Source: an uncultured Roseobacter sp. (GTDB lineage Bacteria > Pseudomonadota > Alphaproteobacteria > Rhodobacterales > Rhodobacteraceae). Taken from it: a stretch of 64,000 nucleotides of DNA. The DNA lies in contig NZ_CANLNE010000001.1 in the NCBI RefSeq assembly GCF_947492555.1, forward strand, positions 1,302,001 to 1,366,000. The letters are read 5' to 3'. The notes under the pieces are model-generated. The model did not search any database. It saw nothing but the letters and a program-made list of their open reading frames with translations, and was not told the DNA's origin. Below are positions 13,130-22,312 of this stretch, piece by piece (the first letter of the stretch is position 1; every line of letters begins with the position of its first letter). The translations under genes were made by a program, and so were the position numbers.

Positions 13130-13765
13130 TTACGGAATGGCAAAGAGCGCATCGGCAAGTGCTGCGCAGTTTGTGCCGTCTGGCGCGACAGCCCTCAAGT
13201 GCCGGACCAGATCGAGCCTCTCGAAGGTGCGAGCATAGGACAACGCGCCGCCTGTCTTGGCAGGAAATCCAAGCGCGCTGATGCTCAGGTGATCAACGCG
13301 CGACGTCACATGCGACCCTCTGGTCGTCATGAGGTCGAGCGCGGCAAGGACAATCCCGGCGACGAGCCGTTGCAGAATCTGCTCGCCCCTTAACTCAACG
13401 CGCGTGACACCGGCAAACCACGCCTCTTCGCGCAGCAGATCTTCCACCAGCGGGTCGATCACCAGCCCACCCCCACCGGGATAGCGATACCAGCCGACAC
13501 CCACCTTGCGGCCCAGACGTCCCTCCGCAACCATACGCGGCAGTATTGGAGAGAACGTAGCCTCATGTGATCGGGACGCAGCATTCCGGCGCTGCAGTAC
13601 AGTATCCAGCCCAACCTCATCCTGCCCCTCGCAGACGCCTGTGGGAAACCCAAAATCGGTCATCGCAGCGTCTAGTTCCCAAGGGTTGGTGGCCTGCATC
13701 AAAAGCTGATCCGCCGCAGCATAGAGCCCATCTGTCAGCGCTTGGGCAATCTCTGCGTCTGTCAC
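13130..13765 (-). CDS. Stand-alone 3-hydroxyacyl-CoA dehydrogenase C-terminal-domain protein
   Basis: A 211-residue protein made of two 3HCDH C-terminal-type modules and no NAD-binding domain. The first module has NPWELDAAMTDFGFPTGVCE and RLGRKVGVGWYRYP; the second has RVDHLSISALGFPAKTGGAL followed by SYARTF, as in the tandem C-terminal half of FadB/FadJ. A full 3-hydroxyacyl-CoA dehydrogenase also needs an N-terminal Rossmann domain with GxGxxG, which is absent here and in the DNA upstream, where boxR sits. The gene overlaps boxR by 4 bp (ATGA) and is translated with it. The chemistry fits the box pathway's later beta-oxidation-like steps, but whether this half-enzyme is active, binds ligand, or pairs with another subunit is unknown. 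Confidence 0.75.
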   Translation of the reverse strand: MTDAEIAQALTDGLYAAADQLLMQATNPWELDAAMTDFGFPTGVCEGQDEVGLDTVLQRRNAASRSHEATFSPILPRMVAEGRLGRKVGVGWYRYPGGGGLVIDPLVEDLLREEAWFAGVTRVELRGEQILQRLVAGIVLAALDLMTTRGSHVTSRVDHLSISALGFPAKTGGALSYARTFERLDLVRHLRAVAPDGTNCAALADALFAIP

Positions 13766-14652
13766 TCTGCGGGTGCCTCGAGAAAGCCCTTGGCGGCAAT
13801 CACCTTTATCAGATCGTTGAGCGAACCTGATATGGTCCGGTTCGACGTATTGACCTGCGCTTCGGCCTTCTCATAGAGCGCGGTCCGCGCGCTAAGCAGC
13901 GATTTCAGCTGCTGCATGGCCGCCGGGTTGCCCTGCATCGGGCGCAAGTCGCCCTGCGCCCTCACACGTTGCATATGCTCTGCCGGGGAGGTGCGCAGCC
14001 AGACGGTGTGAAACCGTTCCAACACCTGTTGATAGGTCGCCTCTTCCGCCACCAGCCCGCCTGCCACGGCGAGGATCATCCGGTCGTGCTTTTCCACAGT
14101 GCGGGCAATCGCTTCGGCTTCCAGCGCGCGGTAACCGTCCTGCCCGTAGAACGCCATGACCTCGGAGAGCGGCATGCCCGTGTGCTCCTCGATGTCCCGG
14201 TTCAGCTCCACAAACGGCAGGCCAAGCGCCTTTCCCGCCAGACGGCCCAGGGTGGATTTCCCCGCCCCGCGCAATCCGATCAGACAAATGCGCCCGGCAC
14301 GCAAGGCCGCCGGGTTTTGCGGTGCCAAAAGACTGCGTATTTTCTGTCGCACCTCTTCGGGTGCTGCGCGGTAGAGATGCGCCACCCGATCAACATCCCT
14401 GTCCCAGGGCGCATTTTCCGACACCAGGTTTTCGACCCTGACCTCCAGCGCCGTCGCGATCCGGTGCAGCAGGGTGATAGAGATGTTGCCCTCCCCCGCT
14501 TCAAGCTGCGCAAGATAGCGCGGGGAGACCCCGGATTTTTCCGACAGGGCACGCCGTGGCAACCCCAGACCCTTACGCAGGTCACGCACACGGGCCGCCA
14601 GGCGCATTTTCAGTGCCTGGCTCGGGTCTGGTGTGACGGTTGTGTCGGTCAT
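13762..14652 (-). CDS. boxR: BoxR/BzdR-type regulator: XRE helix-turn-helix fused to shikimate-kinase-like domain
   Basis: A 296-residue fusion. Residues about 17-75 are an XRE-type HTH (VRDLRKGLGLPRRALSEKSG, VSPRYLAQLEAGEGNISITL); the C-terminal half from about residue 125 resembles shikimate kinase, with an intact P-loop (GLRGAGKSTLGR). This architecture defines BzdR/BoxR regulators, where the kinase-like domain binds benzoyl-CoA and releases DNA repression. The start at 14652 was chosen over an upstream frame start at 14706 because it gives the usual N-terminus. It lies directly after boxA, separated by 105 bp, so it may have its own promoter. Confidence 0.92.
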   Translation of the reverse strand: MTDTTVTPDPSQALKMRLAARVRDLRKGLGLPRRALSEKSGVSPRYLAQLEAGEGNISITLLHRIATALEVRVENLVSENAPWDRDVDRVAHLYRAAPEEVRQKIRSLLAPQNPAALRAGRICLIGLRGAGKSTLGRLAGKALGLPFVELNRDIEEHTGMPLSEVMAFYGQDGYRALEAEAIARTVEKHDRMILAVAGGLVAEEATYQQVLERFHTVWLRTSPAEHMQRVRAQGDLRPMQGNPAAMQQLKSLLSARTALYEKAEAQVNTSNRTISGSLNDLIKVIAAKGFLEAPAE

Positions 14653-14757
14653 ACGGCACCTGCGAAACTGAACAATAATGCAGGTTGTAGGGCGGATGGT
14701 GACCACCTCAAGCCGACACGACCTAAAAAATGGAAATATCTCGCATCAATCCGGACC

Positions 14758-15954
14758 TCAGTAGGTTTCGACGTGGTACCGGCCCTCGTCGCGCATCTGG
14801 TTGCGCAAAGCTGCCCAGTCCTTGCCGCTGCCTTGCGCAATGTCACTCAGCGCTTCTTCGACACCCTGCTCCATCGCCTTGAGACCGCAGATGTAGATAT
14901 GGCTGTCCTGCGATGACAGCAGGGCGGCGATGGCCTGCGATTGTTCACGCAGCTTGTCCTGAACGTATTGCTTGGGCTGATCAGGCGCTCGGCTGAAGGC
15001 AAACGCCTTGCGCATGAATTGATCCGGCACTTTCTTCAGCGGTCCGAAATAGGGCAGATCACGGGGGCTGCGAGCCCCAAAGACCAATGTCAGGCTGTCC
15101 CGGGTCTTGGGCATCTCGCGCTGACGTCGCATGGTGAACCCGCGAAACGGTGCGGAACCGGTGCCGGTGCAGATCATCAACAAATGCGCGTTCGGGTCAG
15201 AGGGCAGCAGGAACGTCGCACCAAAGGGCCCGGTGATCTGTACCTCGTCGCCTTTGGCCAAGTCACAGACGTAGTTGGAGCACAGACCCTTTTCCTCACG
15301 CTTGACGGTCAGCGAGATATTGTTGAACCCCGGGCGTTCCCCGTCGCGGGGGCTGGAGACGGAATAGAGCCGCGGTAGATGCGCCTTGCCCTCGGCATCT
15401 GTGCCGGGGGTGATGATGCCGATGCTCTGGCCTTCTAGAACGGGGAACGGCAGGCTGCTCAGATCAAGAATGATGTGGCGCACGTCCCCGTCACTCTCCG
15501 AGTCGGTCAGCCGGTAGTTGCCCTGCACGGTAGCGGTCGCCGGATTGCCAAGAGAATAGAGATTGATCGTCGGTTTGGAGGCGGACGCAGGTGCCTTGGC
15601 CTTGCCGCCTGCGCCTTTGTGGGCCTCGGCCAGCAGCGCCGCAATGGCATCGTCATGGGCCTCAATACCGTCATCCTGCACCTCTTCAGGCAGGGAGATA
15701 TCCTCCTGCTCCGGCAGTTCGTCAAAGTCGTATTGCTGTTCGAGGGAATAGGGCGTTTCCACCACGCGCCATTCATCGATGGAGCCGGTGGGGCAGACCG
15801 GAATGCAGTCCATGCAGAAATTGCAGGTATCCGGGTCGACGACGACATTGTTGTCGTCATGCTGGATCGCCCCGATGGGGCAGGTCATCTCGCAGGTATA
15901 GCAGCGGATGCAGATTTCAGGATCGATAAGATGCTGTTTTACGGGTGTGTTCAT
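14758..15954 (-). CDS. boxA: Benzoyl-CoA 2,3-epoxidase reductase component BoxA
   Basis: A 398-residue electron-transfer subunit that passes electrons from NADPH to BoxB. The N-terminus is a two-cluster ferredoxin (CIRCYTCEMTCP near residues 15-26 and CNFCMDCIPVCP near 45-56). After an acidic linker (about 75-130) comes a ferredoxin-NADP reductase fold: PRLYSVSSPRDGERPGFNNI for FAD and MICTGTGSAPFRGF for the nucleotide, ending in the aromatic-tailed YHVETY. Its ATG overlaps the TGA of the upstream 47-codon gene. Expression with boxB and boxC is implied by spacing and orientation. Confidence 0.96.
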   Translation of the reverse strand: MNTPVKQHLIDPEICIRCYTCEMTCPIGAIQHDDNNVVVDPDTCNFCMDCIPVCPTGSIDEWRVVETPYSLEQQYDFDELPEQEDISLPEEVQDDGIEAHDDAIAALLAEAHKGAGGKAKAPASASKPTINLYSLGNPATATVQGNYRLTDSESDGDVRHIILDLSSLPFPVLEGQSIGIITPGTDAEGKAHLPRLYSVSSPRDGERPGFNNISLTVKREEKGLCSNYVCDLAKGDEVQITGPFGATFLLPSDPNAHLLMICTGTGSAPFRGFTMRRQREMPKTRDSLTLVFGARSPRDLPYFGPLKKVPDQFMRKAFAFSRAPDQPKQYVQDKLREQSQAIAALLSSQDSHIYICGLKAMEQGVEEALSDIAQGSGKDWAALRNQMRDEGRYHVETY

Positions 15955-16094
15955 GGACTGGCGGTGGACCGGTGCAGAACCGTTTCGGGCAGGAAAGCAA
16001 GCTCAACGATATCGCGGCAAATGCCTTTGCAGTCGGTGCAGCCGATGCAATTGGGGCTGGGCGATGCAGGCATTTTAGCGGTTTGGGTCTGCAT
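15951..16094 (-). CDS. Small four-cysteine (ferredoxin-like motif) protein between boxB and boxA
   Basis: A 47-codon gene that starts with ATG at 16094 after TAAGGAGACCGGACCC and ends with a TGA that overlaps the boxA ATG (15951-15954). The product begins MQTQTAKMPASPSPN and then carries CIGCTDCKGIC (residues 16-26), the CxxCxxCxxxC spacing of a [4Fe-4S] ferredoxin half but without the usual following proline, and a short tail (RDIVELAFLP). Good ribosome binding site, exact coupling to boxA and the cysteine motif make it convincing. It could deliver electrons or iron-sulfur clusters to BoxA/BoxB, or stabilise the complex; this is inference. I do not recall a named gene at this site. Confidence 0.72.
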   Translation of the reverse strand: MQTQTAKMPASPSPNCIGCTDCKGICRDIVELAFLPETVLHRSTASP

Positions 16095-16182: not shown

Positions 16183-17634
16183 TCAAGCCATATGAAGCTT
16201 CACATATTCGAAATCGCCGGGTTTGTTGTCGATCCCGACCTTGGGCGGCGCGATCCACGACGCGTATTGGCCCGGTTCATAGCAGGGTTTCATGAGCGAC
16301 TGGATAAAATCCCCGTCTGCCTTTGTGGGCAACCATTGGTCCTGCCGTTTTGCCCAATCGTCGGCGGAAATGATGTTGCCCTCCGGATCAACGGCCACGG
16401 TCGAGAACACGCCAATCTGGCGGTGGAAGCCTTCATGCGGCAGTTTGAATTCGAACTCGACCCCGGCTTTTGCAATCGCCTTGTTCCAGCGTCCGACGCC
16501 ACCTGCCGCATCGCGCACATAGTCATCGCGCAGCCGCATGTTGATCGCAGTCAGGGCGGGCACGTCTTCGGTCAGGATCTGGCCATCCTTGATCGAGGTA
16601 ACCGCGTAAGTGTCCTCCTGCAGCTTGTGGTCATCATCAATGCGCTGCTCCATGTAGCGCCCCTTGATCCCGGCATTGAACGCATTGGCCGCGTTGGTCG
16701 AAACCTCCTGCCCAAAGAGATCGAGGCTCAGGGTATAGTGCAGGTTCAGCTTCTTCTGGATCGTGGGCAGGTCGATCACGCCGAGGTCACGGATTTTATT
16801 GATATCATAGGGGTCGGTGATGCCATGTTTGTTCATGGCTTCCAGCGTGGCCTGAATGGTACGGCCCACGCCGGTCTCGCCGACAAACATGTGATGCGCC
16901 TCTTCGGTCAACATGAAGCGGCAGGTGCGGCTGAGCGGATCGAAGCCGGATTGCGCGAGGCTTTCAAGCTGCATCTTGCCGTCGCGGTCGGTGAAATAGG
17001 TAAACATGAAGAAGCTCAGCCAGTCAGGCGTTTCCTCGTTAAACGCCCCCAGCATCCGTGGTGCTTCCTCGGAGCCTGAAGAGCGCACAAGCAGATCATC
17101 CGCCTCTTCCCGCCCATCACGGCCAAAGTACTTCTGCAGCAGATAGACCATGGCCCAAAGGTGGCGACCCTCTTCCACGTTGACCTGAAAGAGGTTGCGC
17201 ATGTCGTAAAGCGAGGGTGCGGTGTGGCCGAGAAAGCGCTGTTGTTCGACAGAACCCGGCTCGGTGTCACCCTGAATCACGATCAGGCGCTTGAGCATGT
17301 TACGGTATTCGCCGGGGACCTCCTGCCATGCTGGGTCGCCCAAATGCTCCCCCATCGGGATGCGGCGATCCTCAACGGCGGGCGCCAGCAGAACCCCCCA
17401 GCGATACTCGGGCATTTTCACATAGTCGAACTTGGCCCATCCTTTAGGATCCACCGAAACAGCGGTGCGCAGATACACCATGCTCTCCTGAAAATTCTGC
17501 GGGATCAGGTCATTCCACCAGTTGATGTAGCCGGGATGCCATTTTTCCAGTGCCTTCAGCACCTTCTTGTCGGAACTCAGGCCCACGTTGTTGGGGATTT
17601 GGCTGTCGTAGCTGACATTGATGAGATCGAGCAT
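16183..17634 (-). CDS. boxB: Benzoyl-CoA 2,3-epoxidase oxygenase component BoxB
   Basis: A 483-residue di-iron oxygenase that inserts one oxygen atom of O2 into benzoyl-CoA to give 2,3-epoxybenzoyl-CoA. Carboxylate-bridged iron ligands lie in motifs like FQVNVEEGRHLWAMVYLLQK (about residue 150-165) and MLTEEAHHMFVGE (about 235). Length and N-terminus (MLDLINVSYDSQIPNNVGL) are typical of BoxB. It lies between boxC, 97 bp upstream, and the small four-Cys gene, 88 bp downstream. GGAGGAC-type sequence precedes the ATG. Confidence 0.97.
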   Translation of the reverse strand: MLDLINVSYDSQIPNNVGLSSDKKVLKALEKWHPGYINWWNDLIPQNFQESMVYLRTAVSVDPKGWAKFDYVKMPEYRWGVLLAPAVEDRRIPMGEHLGDPAWQEVPGEYRNMLKRLIVIQGDTEPGSVEQQRFLGHTAPSLYDMRNLFQVNVEEGRHLWAMVYLLQKYFGRDGREEADDLLVRSSGSEEAPRMLGAFNEETPDWLSFFMFTYFTDRDGKMQLESLAQSGFDPLSRTCRFMLTEEAHHMFVGETGVGRTIQATLEAMNKHGITDPYDINKIRDLGVIDLPTIQKKLNLHYTLSLDLFGQEVSTNAANAFNAGIKGRYMEQRIDDDHKLQEDTYAVTSIKDGQILTEDVPALTAINMRLRDDYVRDAAGGVGRWNKAIAKAGVEFEFKLPHEGFHRQIGVFSTVAVDPEGNIISADDWAKRQDQWLPTKADGDFIQSLMKPCYEPGQYASWIAPPKVGIDNKPGDFEYVKLHMA

Positions 17635-17731: not shown

Positions 17732-19390
17732 TCACACACGTTGCATATCGTAGACGCCCCGTACGCCAGTCCCGTAGCGCTGCAAGGCACCCTCTGGACC
17801 CACAGCGTTGGGGCGTTGAAAAATCCAGTTCTGCCAGGCGGTCAGACGCCCGAATATCCTTGTTTCCATGGTCTCAGGTCCGGCGAAGCGCAGGTTACCC
17901 TCCATCCCCGTCAGCGCATCGGGGGAGAAGCTGGCGCGCTCCTCTCTGAAGAGGCGGACCTCGTCTTCCCAGTCGATGTCATCATAAGCATAGGTCACAA
18001 GTCCGTGCGCCTCCGCCATCTGCGCGTCGAGCGGTACAAGCACATCCTGCTTGAGACCCTCCACCTGCTCCGGCGTTCCCAGGAATCGCGTCTCCAGACG
18101 GCTGAGACCATTGCCCATGGGATGCCAACCGAAGTTGGCCTCGGTCAGTGTCACCGCCCCAGTCGCCCGGTCATCATCGTCGAAATCATCTAGCATCATA
18201 TAGCTGCGGTCCACAGCCCAGAGCAGCTCTGCCAACACACCGGCGAAGCAGGACCCGTGCTCGACCAAAGCAACCAGACTGCGTGACGTCATGTCGATGC
18301 GCTTCAACACCCGTTTCCAGAAACACAGCACTTCATTGGCCAGCCAGTGATCTCGATGCGCCAAAAGCAACGCCTCATGGGCCACAACCCGCTGCGGGTC
18401 CCCTTGAGTCTGGAATTCGATCAGTCCGAGGTCATCCTCATTTGTGCGCAGATGCAGGATCGCGTCGTCCAGCTCGCGCGCGCATCGCAACATCCACGCA
18501 TCTGACCCCTGTTGCTGAAAGGCGTCCATATCGGCTGGCGCTGCCTCTTCAGGCCCAAGAATAGTGATCTCTGCCCGACGTCCGGCCCGGTCCAAGGCCA
18601 CCTTTACTGTCGAATAGACGATCTCTTCCGCACCAAACGTTCGGTTCAACGGCGTCAGAGCAATCCCATCCGCGCCATCATGATCCAGCTTTTGCGCGGC
18701 AAAGGCGCGGGCGCGTTCGGCCACAACCTCATCGAATTTGGAATTCGGGATGACCTCGTCCACAAGCCGCCACTCCAGCGCGCGCTTTCCTTTCACGCCT
18801 TCCTCCACGGAGCAGAAGACATCTGCGAGGTCCCGGCGCACCTTGCGCTTGTCAGTAACGCGGGTCAGCCCACCGGTGCCCGGCAGCACCGCCAATAGCG
18901 GCACTTCTGGCAGCGCCACGGAGGAGGTACTGTCATCGGTGAGCATGATATGGTTGCACGCCAATGCCAACTCATAGCCACCACCGGCACAGGCACCGCG
19001 TACGGCACAGATGTAGTTTTGTCCGCTGTCCTCCAACGCCGCCTCAAATGTATTGCGGGTTTCATTGGTGAACTTGCAGAAGTTCACCTTGTGCGCATGC
19101 GCGGCACCTCCCAGCATGCGGATGTTGGCGCCTGCACAAAAGACTTTGTCCTTGGCAGATCGCAGCACCACGACCCGGACCTCGGGGTGCTCGAACCGCA
19201 TGCGCTGCACCACGTCCGCAAGCTCAATATCCACACCAAGATCGTAGGAATTCAGCTTCAGTTGGTAGCCGTCGAACAAGCCACCGTCTTCATCCACATC
19301 CATAAAGAGATTGGCAACGGCACCATCATACTCGACCCTCCAATGCTTCATGGCAGCCGGATCGACCTGAAAATCAATGTACGTGCTCAC
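17732..19390 (-). CDS. boxC: 2,3-epoxybenzoyl-CoA dihydrolase BoxC
   Basis: A 552-residue enoyl-CoA hydratase-superfamily enzyme that opens the epoxide ring with two waters to give 3,4-dehydroadipyl-CoA semialdehyde and formate. The first crotonase domain shows the oxyanion-hole motif (KVFCAGANIRMLGG near residue 82-95) and RGACAGGGYELALACNH near 132-148; a second, divergent domain fills the C-terminal half. The double length is normal for BoxC. It is the first box-enzyme gene after the bclA-hydrolase-DUF309 set, and a repeat array lies just upstream of its start. Confidence 0.96.
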   Translation of the reverse strand: MSTYIDFQVDPAAMKHWRVEYDGAVANLFMDVDEDGGLFDGYQLKLNSYDLGVDIELADVVQRMRFEHPEVRVVVLRSAKDKVFCAGANIRMLGGAAHAHKVNFCKFTNETRNTFEAALEDSGQNYICAVRGACAGGGYELALACNHIMLTDDSTSSVALPEVPLLAVLPGTGGLTRVTDKRKVRRDLADVFCSVEEGVKGKRALEWRLVDEVIPNSKFDEVVAERARAFAAQKLDHDGADGIALTPLNRTFGAEEIVYSTVKVALDRAGRRAEITILGPEEAAPADMDAFQQQGSDAWMLRCARELDDAILHLRTNEDDLGLIEFQTQGDPQRVVAHEALLLAHRDHWLANEVLCFWKRVLKRIDMTSRSLVALVEHGSCFAGVLAELLWAVDRSYMMLDDFDDDDRATGAVTLTEANFGWHPMGNGLSRLETRFLGTPEQVEGLKQDVLVPLDAQMAEAHGLVTYAYDDIDWEDEVRLFREERASFSPDALTGMEGNLRFAGPETMETRIFGRLTAWQNWIFQRPNAVGPEGALQRYGTGVRGVYDMQRV

Positions 19391-19434: not shown

Positions 19435-19518
19435 ATTATAAAGCATATCTTCTGAATTAGAATGCATCCAAGTGCGAAATTTTTCGCCTAATTCATCCAT
19501 TTAGTGCTTTATAATGCA
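19435..19518. promoter_or_regulatory. Repeat array upstream of boxC, candidate BoxR operator
   Basis: Three direct copies of a TTAxAAxGCA element lie at 19436-19445 (TTATAAAGCA), 19457-19466 (TTAGAATGCA) and 19509-19518 (TTATAATGCA). The first two are 21 bp apart, two helical turns. An inverted copy, TGCTTTATAAT (19505-19515), is the exact reverse complement of ATTATAAAGCA (19435-19445). TGCA-containing repeats are the known target of BzdR. The array starts 45 bp before boxC and runs into the 3' end of the DUF309 gene. Confidence 0.5.
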
Positions 19519-19966
19519 TCAAAACAACAGAGTGCGTGGCTTGCAACTCGCTTTGGAGAAGATCGATTCTCAATCCAAGAACAGGCATATCATCGGGGCA
19601 GCGGGCCAGATGCGCCTGTACTATATCGCAAAGACGGTGCGCTGCCCGGTGGCGCCCCATAAGCAGCTTGAGACGCGCGTTGGCCAGTTGGATCAAGGCC
19701 TGGACCGCGTCCCTCTCAGCGCTGGGATCCGCCGTGCGCATCCACACAGCTTCCAACACCTCGTGACATTCCCAAAAGTACCCGGCACCGAGGTAGGCCA
19801 ACCCGGCCTGGAACGCTTGGGTTTGATGCAGGGCCGCCGGAGAGTTGACAGGATCAACAGTCGATTTGATGTCATCAAACCACCCTTCGGGATGACGGGG
19901 TGTCTTGCCTGGCACATAGACATGCGAGGGACGCAGCACCTCGGAGAGCTCAGGCCAGATGGACAT
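19493..19966 (-). CDS. DUF309 family protein
   Basis: 157 residues from an ATG at 19966 (MSIWPELSEVLRPSHVYVPG). The DUF309 signature is clear in the middle: LAYLGAGYFWECHEVLEAVW, followed by QALIQLANARLKLLMGRH. The family is all-helical, with a conserved WExHExLE-like motif, and has no established function. It overlaps the hydrolase gene upstream by 17 bp and so belongs to the ligase-hydrolase transcript. Its 3' end carries part of the boxC operator array. Confidence 0.8.
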   Translation of the reverse strand: MSIWPELSEVLRPSHVYVPGKTPRHPEGWFDDIKSTVDPVNSPAALHQTQAFQAGLAYLGAGYFWECHEVLEAVWMRTADPSAERDAVQALIQLANARLKLLMGRHRAAHRLCDIVQAHLARCPDDMPVLGLRIDLLQSELQATHSVVLMHYKALNG

Positions 19967-20771
19967 CTTCCTGCTCCAACCGCACCAGCCGTGCACAAAA
20001 CTCGGCGATGGCTGCGCGTGTTTCCTCCGGGCACTCCAGATGTGGGGCGTGGCCGCATTCGGACTGTATTTCGATTTCCAGCGGGGAGTAGATGCGGGCC
20101 TCGATCTCTTCAATCTGAGCCGTGGTGCCGTAGGGATCCTCCCCGCCCTGAACCGCCAGAACGGGGATACGCCAATGGTCTATTGCATCAGCGGCATTCC
20201 AATACGCGAACGCCGGGTCTGTCCACACGTCATGCCACCCCAAAAAGGCCCCATCTACATCATCATGGTACTTCGCCAGCCGCTGCTTCAAAGAACCCGA
20301 GGCGAATTCGATTCCCGCCGCGCGGATGGCGTCGAGACCGGCGTCTTCCACGAAAAAATGGGGCGCGATCAGGATCAACCCACGCACCCGCCTGTCGCTG
20401 ACCGACCCGGCATAGATGCTCGCAATCGTCGCGCCATCAGAATGGCCCAGCAGGATCACGTCCCCAAGGCCGGCGACATCCATCACCCGCCCAAGCACAT
20501 CCTCTGCTTCCTGCGTCATGTAATCTACAGAGCGTGGCAATGCGACGGGCGTTGACGTGCCGTAGCCCTGCCGCGAATAGACAAAAACGCCCAGGCCCGT
20601 TGCCTTGGCCAGTTGCGCGGGGAACTCCCGCCAGAGAGCGACGCACCCAAGCCCCTCATGCAACAAGACAAGGGTTGGTTTCTGGCCCGGCGGCAGACCA
20701 TAGCACGCGTATTCCAACTGCACGCCTGCAACGTTGAGAGGTGCGTCAGGTTCTGCTGTCCAGCGGATCAT
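19950..20771 (-). CDS. Alpha/beta hydrolase in the benzoate cluster
   Basis: 273 residues from an ATG at 20771 that overlaps the ligase stop (ATGA). The fold is standard: oxyanion-loop region LVLLHEGLGCVALWREFPAQ, nucleophile elbow LGHSDGATIA with Ser near residue 104, an acidic residue in AVQGGEDPYGT, and the catalytic His in ECGHAPHLE. Comparable hydrolases are often linked to box/benzoate clusters and may cleave stalled CoA thioesters or lactones; the substrate here is unknown. Translationally coupled to benzoate-CoA ligase upstream and the DUF309 gene downstream. Confidence 0.85.
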   Translation of the reverse strand: MIRWTAEPDAPLNVAGVQLEYACYGLPPGQKPTLVLLHEGLGCVALWREFPAQLAKATGLGVFVYSRQGYGTSTPVALPRSVDYMTQEAEDVLGRVMDVAGLGDVILLGHSDGATIASIYAGSVSDRRVRGLILIAPHFFVEDAGLDAIRAAGIEFASGSLKQRLAKYHDDVDGAFLGWHDVWTDPAFAYWNAADAIDHWRIPVLAVQGGEDPYGTTAQIEEIEARIYSPLEIEIQSECGHAPHLECPEETRAAIAEFCARLVRLEQEDVHLA

Positions 20772-22312
20772 TGCGCCGACGGCCCGCGCAGCTTGAAGCG
20801 CTGGATTTTCCCGGTGGCGGTCTTGGGCAGGTCGTCGACGACTTCGATCCAGCGGGGATATTTCCACTTCCCGATCCGCGATTTCACATGCGCGATAAGG
20901 TCCGCTTCCAGATCCGCATTGGCGCTCTTTTCCAGCACGATGAAAGCCTTTGGTTTTTCCAACCCTTCGGCATCCTGCGCAGCAACCACCGCAGCCTCCA
21001 GCACGGAAGGGTGGCTTGCCAGCGCCTGCTCCACCTCGAAGGGAGAGACCCAGATGCCGGAAACCTTGAACATGTCGTCAGTTCGACCGCAGTAGATATA
21101 GCGCCCGTCCGGGCGGCGCTCGTATTTGTCGCCGGTACGCGTCCAGACCCCTTCAAAGGTGGCACGAGACTTGCCGCGCTGGTTCCAATAGGCCGCCGCA
21201 GATGACGCACCATTGACCAGCATCTCACCGATTTCATTGTCAGCCACATCCTCGCCCGCGTCATCGACCAACCGCACCGCGTAGCCGGGCACCGGTGTCC
21301 CGGAGGTCCCATAGGCCAGGTCATCCGCCCGATTACTCAGGAAGATATGCAGCATTTCGGTCGATCCGACGCCGTCGAGAATATCAACGCCCGTGTGTCC
21401 CTGCCACCGTTTGCCCACATCCTCGGGCAGGGCCTCTCCGGCGGAGATACAGCGCCGCAGCGGTGCGCCCGGTGGCCCGGACTTGTCCATCTCCGCCACC
21501 ATGGCGGCATAGAGCGTGGGCACACCGCAAAACACGGTCGGGTTTTCGCTATTCAGCGTTGCGATCATATCGACAGGCGTGGGCCGTCCCGCAAAGAGCA
21601 CTGTCGTTGCGCCTGCGGCCAGCGGGAAGGTCATCGCATTGCCCAAACCGTAGGCAAAAAAGAGTTTTGCAGCCGAAAACACGGTATCGCTTTCGGTGAG
21701 GTTCAGAACATGCGCGCCATAGGTATCGGCGGTTGCCTGCATGCTGGCGTGTACGTGCTGCACCCCTTTCGGCTGGCCGGTGGAACCGGAAGAGTAGAGC
21801 CAGAAGGCGACATCATCCGCGGACACCGCCGTTGTGGGCAGAGCCTCGGCATCGGCGGTGAAATCATCAAAAGACTGCGCGGAGTCGGCAGCTTCATCGC
21901 CAATAATGACAACCGATCTGAGATAGGGGTTATCCGTCAGCACCGGCTTCACGGTCTCATAAAGCGGCGCTGAGACAAAGAGTGTCACCGCACGGCTGTC
22001 GCGCAGGATCGCATCGTAGATCGGCGCCGCGAGCAATGTATTGATCGGGATCGGCACGACGCCGCATTTCAGCGCGCCAAAGAAGATCTGGGGGAACTCG
22101 ACCGTATCAAGCACCAGCATCGCAACCCGCTCTTCGGCCCGCAGCCCCGCACGCATCATCGCACCTGCGACACGGCCCGTACCCTCGGCAAGCTGCTGGT
22201 AGGTCAGGCTGCGTCCGCCGCCCGCTTCGCGGTAGGCGCATTTGTTTGCGCGCCCCTCTGCCAGATGTCTGTCAACGAAATAGCTGGCCGCGTTCTCAGT
22301 GGTGCTGATCAC
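20768..22312 (-). CDS. bclA: Benzoate-CoA ligase
   Basis: A 514-residue AMP-forming acyl-CoA ligase that activates benzoate to benzoyl-CoA, the substrate of BoxAB. The AMP-binding P-loop is YSSGSTGQPKGVQHVH (about residues 171-186); the late motif GVWTRTGDKYERRPDGRYIY and the C-terminal lysine region PKTATGKIQRFKLR are intact. Benzoate-ligase features such as KLFFAYGLGNAMTFPLA are present. The start codon is GTG at 22312 after AGGGGAGAAACAC. It heads a transcript with the hydrolase and DUF309 genes, and TGCA repeats lie in its upstream region. Confidence 0.94.
   Translation of the reverse strand: MISTTENAASYFVDRHLAEGRANKCAYREAGGGRSLTYQQLAEGTGRVAGAMMRAGLRAEERVAMLVLDTVEFPQIFFGALKCGVVPIPINTLLAAPIYDAILRDSRAVTLFVSAPLYETVKPVLTDNPYLRSVVIIGDEAADSAQSFDDFTADAEALPTTAVSADDVAFWLYSSGSTGQPKGVQHVHASMQATADTYGAHVLNLTESDTVFSAAKLFFAYGLGNAMTFPLAAGATTVLFAGRPTPVDMIATLNSENPTVFCGVPTLYAAMVAEMDKSGPPGAPLRRCISAGEALPEDVGKRWQGHTGVDILDGVGSTEMLHIFLSNRADDLAYGTSGTPVPGYAVRLVDDAGEDVADNEIGEMLVNGASSAAAYWNQRGKSRATFEGVWTRTGDKYERRPDGRYIYCGRTDDMFKVSGIWVSPFEVEQALASHPSVLEAAVVAAQDAEGLEKPKAFIVLEKSANADLEADLIAHVKSRIGKWKYPRWIEVVDDLPKTATGKIQRFKLRGPSAQ

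Follow-up and report, generated by a model that had tools for sequence, protein, structure and literature searches.

A conserved four-cysteine small gene follows boxB in Rhodobacterales and probably encodes a cluster-binding accessory of the benzoyl-CoA epoxidase

A small four-cysteine gene located directly downstream of boxB belongs to a real, conserved family and was found only in Rhodobacterales within the samples searched. Its product is probably an accessory of BoxB that binds a cluster. The most likely reading, which we hold tentatively, is that the protein would bind a [4Fe-4S] cluster through its CxxCxxCxGxC motif and serve as an auxiliary iron-sulfur partner of BoxB. No Pfam or NCBIfam family covers the gene in model searches, and such a small protein is absent from the titles and abstract openings of the papers listed in literature searches on the Box pathway and small di-iron partners.

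The window, i.e. the whole 64,000-nucleotide stretch of DNA from an uncultured Roseobacter sp. that was analysed, carries the gene on the minus strand at 16094-15951, between boxB and boxA (47 codons; coordinates from the reading-frame check, stop included). The initial annotation had described a 47-codon frame at 15951..16094 in this gap without giving its strand, and had noted a strong Shine-Dalgarno sequence before it and an ATGA shared with boxA at its end; all of these are present. The Shine-Dalgarno sequence is AAGGAG at 16109-16104 on the minus strand, spaced 9 nt from the ATG. The stop codon TGA (15953-15951) and the boxA ATG (15954-15952) share an ATGA at 15951..15954 on the same strand. 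The 47-amino acid product, MQTQTAKMPASPSPNCIGCTDCKGICRDIVELAFLPETVLHRSTASP, has one CxxCxxCxxxC motif, CIGCTDCKGIC (residues 16-26), encoded at 16017..16049 on the minus strand. boxC, boxB and boxA lie on one strand with the small gene, and each scores above its NCBIfam cut-off. boxB, encoding the di-iron benzoyl-CoA 2,3-epoxidase subunit, is found at 16183..17634 (TIGR03225, E 2.7e-271, 900 bits vs a cut-off of 499) and boxA, encoding the reductase with a two-motif ferredoxin domain, at 14758..15954 (TIGR03224, E 2.5e-163, 544 bits vs a cut-off of 459; also Fer4 and NAD_binding_1). boxC, encoding the 2,3-epoxybenzoyl-CoA dihydrolase, is at 17732..19390 (TIGR03222, E 1.1e-278), and further upstream on the minus strand is a gene of the benzoate-CoA ligase family at 20768..22312 (TIGR02262, E 7e-219). 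boxA is followed by a gene with helix-turn-helix and shikimate-kinase domains (13762-14706). A DUF309 gene is found at 19493-20113, upstream of boxC on the same minus strand, and by eye a 157-amino acid frame ahead of boxB at L038 resembles it. A stop/start overlap recurs in named loci: a script detects it between the small gene and boxA in 21 of 27, and the count is 23 when L206 and L208, where an ATGA was recognized by eye, are included; in the remaining four the stop and start are 1 to 330 nt apart. The small gene is confirmed as genuine, conserved and translationally coupled to boxA.

The window protein was searched against 295 genomes of the family Rhodobacteraceae (the family sample), and clear matches were assembled into alignment A1, from which a profile was made. 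A1 comprises 28 of the 30 frames of L003-L032, omitting L007 and L023, which have no clear ATG start, and its members are 47-67 amino acids long; alignment A3 holds 47 of the 56 available members. Strong profile matches, with E no higher than 1.8e-8, occur in 47 of the 295 genomes; the hits that come next, at 1.8e-4 and 2.4e-4, were not counted. In two genomes, G009 and G143, a frameshift interrupts the copy, and that of G009 is one of the copies in the boxB slot described below. The four cysteines, the glycine before the fourth cysteine and proline 36 are invariant in all 68 distinct sequences, a set selected by the profile, which favours invariance, and both cysteine codons are used at each of the four positions. 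The Ka/Ks comparison proposed with the initial annotation agreed with conservation: pooled dN/dS is 0.56 in frame (0.43 in the core), compared with 1.14 and 1.53 for the two out-of-frame readings, calculated from 59 of 2278 pairs (pS < 0.5, pN < 0.35), which are not independent. This shows purifying selection confined to the frame of the small gene.

The occurrence of the gene is linked to boxB. boxB scores above its cut-off in 62 genomes of the family sample, and looking beside it for the frame in other Rhodobacteraceae, also suggested in the initial annotation, was rewarded: 41 of the 62 have the small gene in the same slot, every copy directly downstream of boxB and on the same strand, at a distance of 35-213 nt by profile coordinates. 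The association (41 genomes with both, 21 with boxB only, 6 with the small gene only, 227 with neither) gives a Fisher p of 4e-28, a statistic that ignores relatedness. Among the 21 boxB genomes without a profile match in the family sample, G139 and G240 carry a variant form, G017 has a different four-cysteine frame, and the contig of G102 stops at boxB. The frame in G017 (L100) is a distinct short one in the boxB-boxA gap, with the motif CARCGGCEKGC and no strong match to the profile.

Outside the order, the gene was not encountered. A survey of named genomes anchored on boxB covered 80 loci; the 48 from Rhodobacterales comprise 30 with the gene, 3 with the variant and 15 with neither, and the gene is present in none of the remaining 32 (29 from other orders, 3 without assigned order). 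In a class sample of 289 genomes, boxB scores above cut-off in 54, of which 52 are outside the family, and the profile search found the small gene in none of these 52; besides the window genome, the profile matches in this sample just two sites, weakly (E 5e-4 and 8e-4) and in frames of more than 400 codons. A frame scan of 30 of the 54 boxB loci, with motifs followed by proline excluded, detected no such four-cysteine frame at the 28 loci outside the family. Plasmid records gave 11 with a distant boxB (Mycetohabitans, Nonomuraea, Embleya) and were uninformative. The small gene is thus found only in Rhodobacterales within the samples searched, and the earlier suggestion of a general new component of the Box pathway does not hold against the 52 genomes from other families and the 32 named loci outside the order. 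In Rhodobacterales with an adjacent boxA, the boxB-boxA gap measures 194-552 nt in the 27 loci that have the gene and 2-97 nt in the 13 that lack it. Long gaps without a match to the family exist in Hyphomicrobiales (L195, 352 nt; L227, 228 nt; L224, 195 nt; L197, 189 nt), so gap length is informative only within Rhodobacterales. On a BoxB tree of 58 of the 81 BoxB rows, the presence/absence label changes 14-15 times, with at least 5 changes forced by well supported branches, including differences among Sulfitobacter. Repeated loss is the simplest reading of this patchy presence, and gain is equally compatible with the tree. The patchiness on the tree marks the gene as accessory and dispensable.

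The initial annotation had placed the small gene, as a tiny iron-sulfur protein or cluster donor, in a pathway that moves electrons from NADPH through BoxA to the BoxB di-iron centre. Several genomes tie it to boxB more than to boxA. In G080 and G213, boxA is on a separate contig (beside boxC in G080) and the small gene remains with boxB. L184 and G213 are probably one genome and were counted once, and G220 (75% complete), with only a fragment of boxA, was left out of the split-cluster count. L175 has boxB and the small gene in a genome without boxA above cut-off. These boxA-less and split-cluster genomes, together with pairs of boxB and a flavodoxin gene that have no small gene between them, show that the small gene goes with boxB; it is untied to BoxA and not strictly needed. 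Many clusters with both boxA and boxB have no small gene, which removes the notion of a required BoxA-to-BoxB link, and an obligate relay is hard to reconcile with its patchy distribution. An obligate shuttle also loses ground, since 21 of 62 boxB genomes gave no match and some genomes have no boxA; the genomes without boxA weaken a role as maturation factor for BoxA clusters as well. The small gene is also present in 6 genomes of the family sample that have no boxA, boxB or boxC above cut-off. Open copies of this kind are those of L033 (G266), L034 (G106), L121 (G193), L035 (G217) and L122 (G239), which may be relics of lost box clusters or have another role. In G106 and G193 the small gene follows a gene for the TRAP transporter component DctM and in G266 a DUF309 gene; DctM-type and DUF309-type genes both occur near the box genes of the window too.

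A flavodoxin gene takes the boxA slot in nine clusters (L168, L172, L181, L200, L202, L211, L104 (G056), L114 (G139) and L119 (G240)). The flavodoxin genes of L168, L200 and L211 were scored, with Flavodoxin_1 at E 7e-25 for L168, and the others were recognized by eye. boxA above cut-off is found in none of the eight flavodoxin-type genomes searched (all nine except L211). In these nine clusters flavodoxin appears to stand in for BoxA as the electron donor. The Tateyamaria clusters L168, L172 and L181 and those of G139 and G240, all from genomes in which the search gave no boxA above cut-off, have the order boxB, a frame with CxxxCxxCxGxC, flavodoxin gene; in L200, L202, L211 and G056 the flavodoxin gene follows boxB directly, with no small gene. 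The CxxxCxxCxGxC variant is homologous to the family (hhalign probability 94%, E 1.3e-7). Mapped onto the BoxB tree, the flavodoxin state changes 5 times, at least 3 of them on supported branches. In the five clusters with the variant, BoxB is expected to be the metalloprotein of the pair, and we infer that the role of the small protein cannot be confined to the BoxA clusters.

Positions in BoxB were compared with both features. Column 459 shows the strongest association with the small gene: Ser occupies it in 24 of the 34 rows that have the gene and in 4 of the 30 that lack it, where Gly is frequent. Across 5 independent pairs it agrees with the presence of the gene in a mean of 3.5 and disagrees in 0.06. 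The column had been selected as the top-ranking one of all, and five pairs are too few for significance; as a possible contact with the small protein it is a lead, not a result. Positions 437, 331, 385, 115 and 112, considered as gene-dependent, do not track the gene in most independent pairs. Residues 377-389 (window BoxB numbering) distinguish flavodoxin-type from other clusters: R389 and L380 are each found in 9 of 9 flavodoxin-type rows vs 2 of 65 others, and R381 in 8 of 9 vs 1 of 65, the 65 including L175 from a genome without boxA above cut-off. Positions 389 and 380 track the electron donor in a mean of 2.7 and 2.75 of 3 independent pairs, respectively. The electron donor may dock at this segment.

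The half-ferredoxin spacing pointed out in the initial annotation is present, and nearly all of the matches that it attracts, which are weak, involve [4Fe-4S] ferredoxin motifs. Against Pfam, the window protein has no notable match (best E 0.23) and no match to Fer4 up to E 1. Its four weak NCBIfam matches are all iron-sulfur proteins, and the BoxA model TIGR03224 is not among them. The best Fer4 E-value among 28 members is 0.0019, none of 10 members scored against the Pfam cut-offs reaches one (best 18.5 bits vs 27), and the NCBIfam matches of members are nearly all iron-sulfur proteins by name. The same is true, weakly, of the best 60 of 83 matches of the profile in the PDB. The best of these is PsaC at E 4.7e-5, a value combined from separate matches to its two motifs, each of which alone gives only E 0.12-0.22. 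AlphaFold models, for products of 47 and 57 residues, are helical and contain no beta strands, at low confidence (mean pLDDT 66-69, pTM 0.30-0.33).

The small protein resembles the 2[4Fe-4S] ferredoxins of the PsaC/Fer4 type in having a CxxCxxCxxxC motif of the CIGCT/CVGCT kind. It has only one such motif, whereas these ferredoxins have two CxxCxxCxxxCP motifs per chain and a beta-alpha-beta fold; the low-confidence models of the small protein show no strands. Unlike them, most of the family has no proline after the fourth cysteine: proline is not among the five commonest residues at this position, and in the window product, which reads CRDIVELAFLPETVL after the motif, the fourth cysteine is followed by R. 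Another parallel is found in half-ferredoxins, or semidoxins. Passages of a 2025 report on designed half-ferredoxins (PMC12648291) describe semidoxins of ~30 amino acids that keep a CP-x-x-AI sequence and bind a [4Fe-4S] cluster as dimer or monomer, with PD1 of Thermoanaerobacter as a natural example; short ferredoxins are there said to occur nearly only in anaerobes, and natural half-ferredoxins to be rare and to date confined to thermophilic anaerobes. Measured against that description, the small protein shares a free-standing single motif of the [4Fe-4S] type and is mostly below 60 amino acids, but at 47-67 amino acids in A1 it exceeds the strict size of ~30, mostly has no CP and is encoded next to an oxygen-using epoxidase. 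The ferredoxin domain of BoxA (TIGR03224) shares the operon and CxxCxxCxxxC motifs with it; BoxA, however, has two motifs fused to a reductase, and the small protein is a chain of its own whose gene goes with boxB. According to passages of PMC4498308, BoxA carries two [4Fe-4S] clusters, and minor amounts of it suffice for BoxB activity. BoxA with 7 rather than 8 cysteines in residues 1-62 is found at L107, L109, L116, L205, L210 and L222, the missing one belonging to the second cluster motif. These 6 rows (L109 and L210 being alike) are all from clusters without the small gene, and none of the 28 rows with the gene is of this kind.

The reading we prefer, an iron-sulfur partner of BoxB, could operate as follows. 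The small protein would be made together with BoxB and BoxA and would dock on BoxB, where it may donate single electrons to the di-iron centre or re-reduce the centre after an unproductive oxidation. NADPH-BoxA, or flavodoxin where boxA is missing, would stay the main electron donor. The constant place after boxB, the invariant residues, the iron-sulfur matches and the clusters without boxA speak for this reading; counting against it are the boxB genomes that lack the gene, the copies in genomes with no box genes above cut-off, the minor amounts of BoxA that suffice for BoxB activity and the helical, low-confidence models. One more specific possibility, which we consider doubtful, is a natural free-standing half-ferredoxin with a known gene partner in oxygen-using bacteria, two copies of which would assemble around [4Fe-4S] clusters in the way proposed for the ancestor of ferredoxins and pass electrons to a di-iron oxygenase.

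Small assembly proteins serve other di-iron monooxygenases. A possible but less probable alternative is that the small protein assembles, delivers iron to or protects the di-iron site of BoxB, and would be needed in the cell and not in the assay. The model for such a role is PaaD of the PaaABCE system, which passages of PMC4498308 describe as a small, SufT-like protein of ~170 amino acids with DUF59, indispensable in vivo and not in vitro. PaaD, too, is an accessory protein encoded beside a related di-iron epoxidase, in the phenylacetyl-CoA epoxidase operon, and a factor of this kind would fit a gene that is accessory, patchy and stays with boxB under either electron donor. The small protein differs from PaaD in size and in having no DUF59 match, which for the window protein holds up to E 1 in Pfam; no other assembly family in Pfam matches either, and the motif is like half a ferredoxin and unlike an iron chaperone. 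From sequence, iron delivery and electron entry or re-reduction would be indistinguishable.

It is rather unlikely that the four cysteines bind zinc or form thiol-disulfides in a structural or redox-sensing adaptor of BoxB, with no iron-sulfur cluster. Such an adaptor would agree with the few invariant residues besides the cysteines (one Gly, one Pro), with a fold predicted, at low confidence, to be helical, with the weak, single-motif similarity to ferredoxins and with the general lack of the proline found after the fourth cysteine in half-ferredoxins, as passages of PMC12648291 have it. The spacing CxxCxxCxxxC is nevertheless that of the ferredoxin motif, and iron-sulfur proteins by name make up the best 60 of 83 PDB matches and nearly all NCBIfam matches. 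Less likely still is an upstream open reading frame that sets boxA translation as a coupling or sensing leader and makes a peptide of little use. The frequent overlap with the boxA start (21 of 27 named loci by script, and 23 counting those read by eye) and a gene that is short and evolves fast are features expected of such a leader, but conservation at the protein level reaches past the cysteines, the gene is with boxB even where boxA is elsewhere, and a homologue precedes a flavodoxin gene instead of boxA. A chance open frame, which shortness and the lack of a family model might suggest, is ruled out by the conserved slot, motif, Shine-Dalgarno sequence and boxA overlap, by the association with boxB and by selection in one frame only.

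In conclusion, a known aerobic pathway for benzoate has at its core a conserved small gene for which neither Pfam nor NCBIfam has a model. If its product binds a cluster, a di-iron epoxidase would gain a new iron-sulfur accessory. The protein would also join the few ferredoxin-like proteins that are free-standing and have a single motif, its gene partner being known, and the half-ferredoxin stage of ferredoxin evolution would become testable in a real pathway. Ready comparisons are at hand in the absences among close relatives, as in Sulfitobacter, and in the donor switches of Tateyamaria with flavodoxin.
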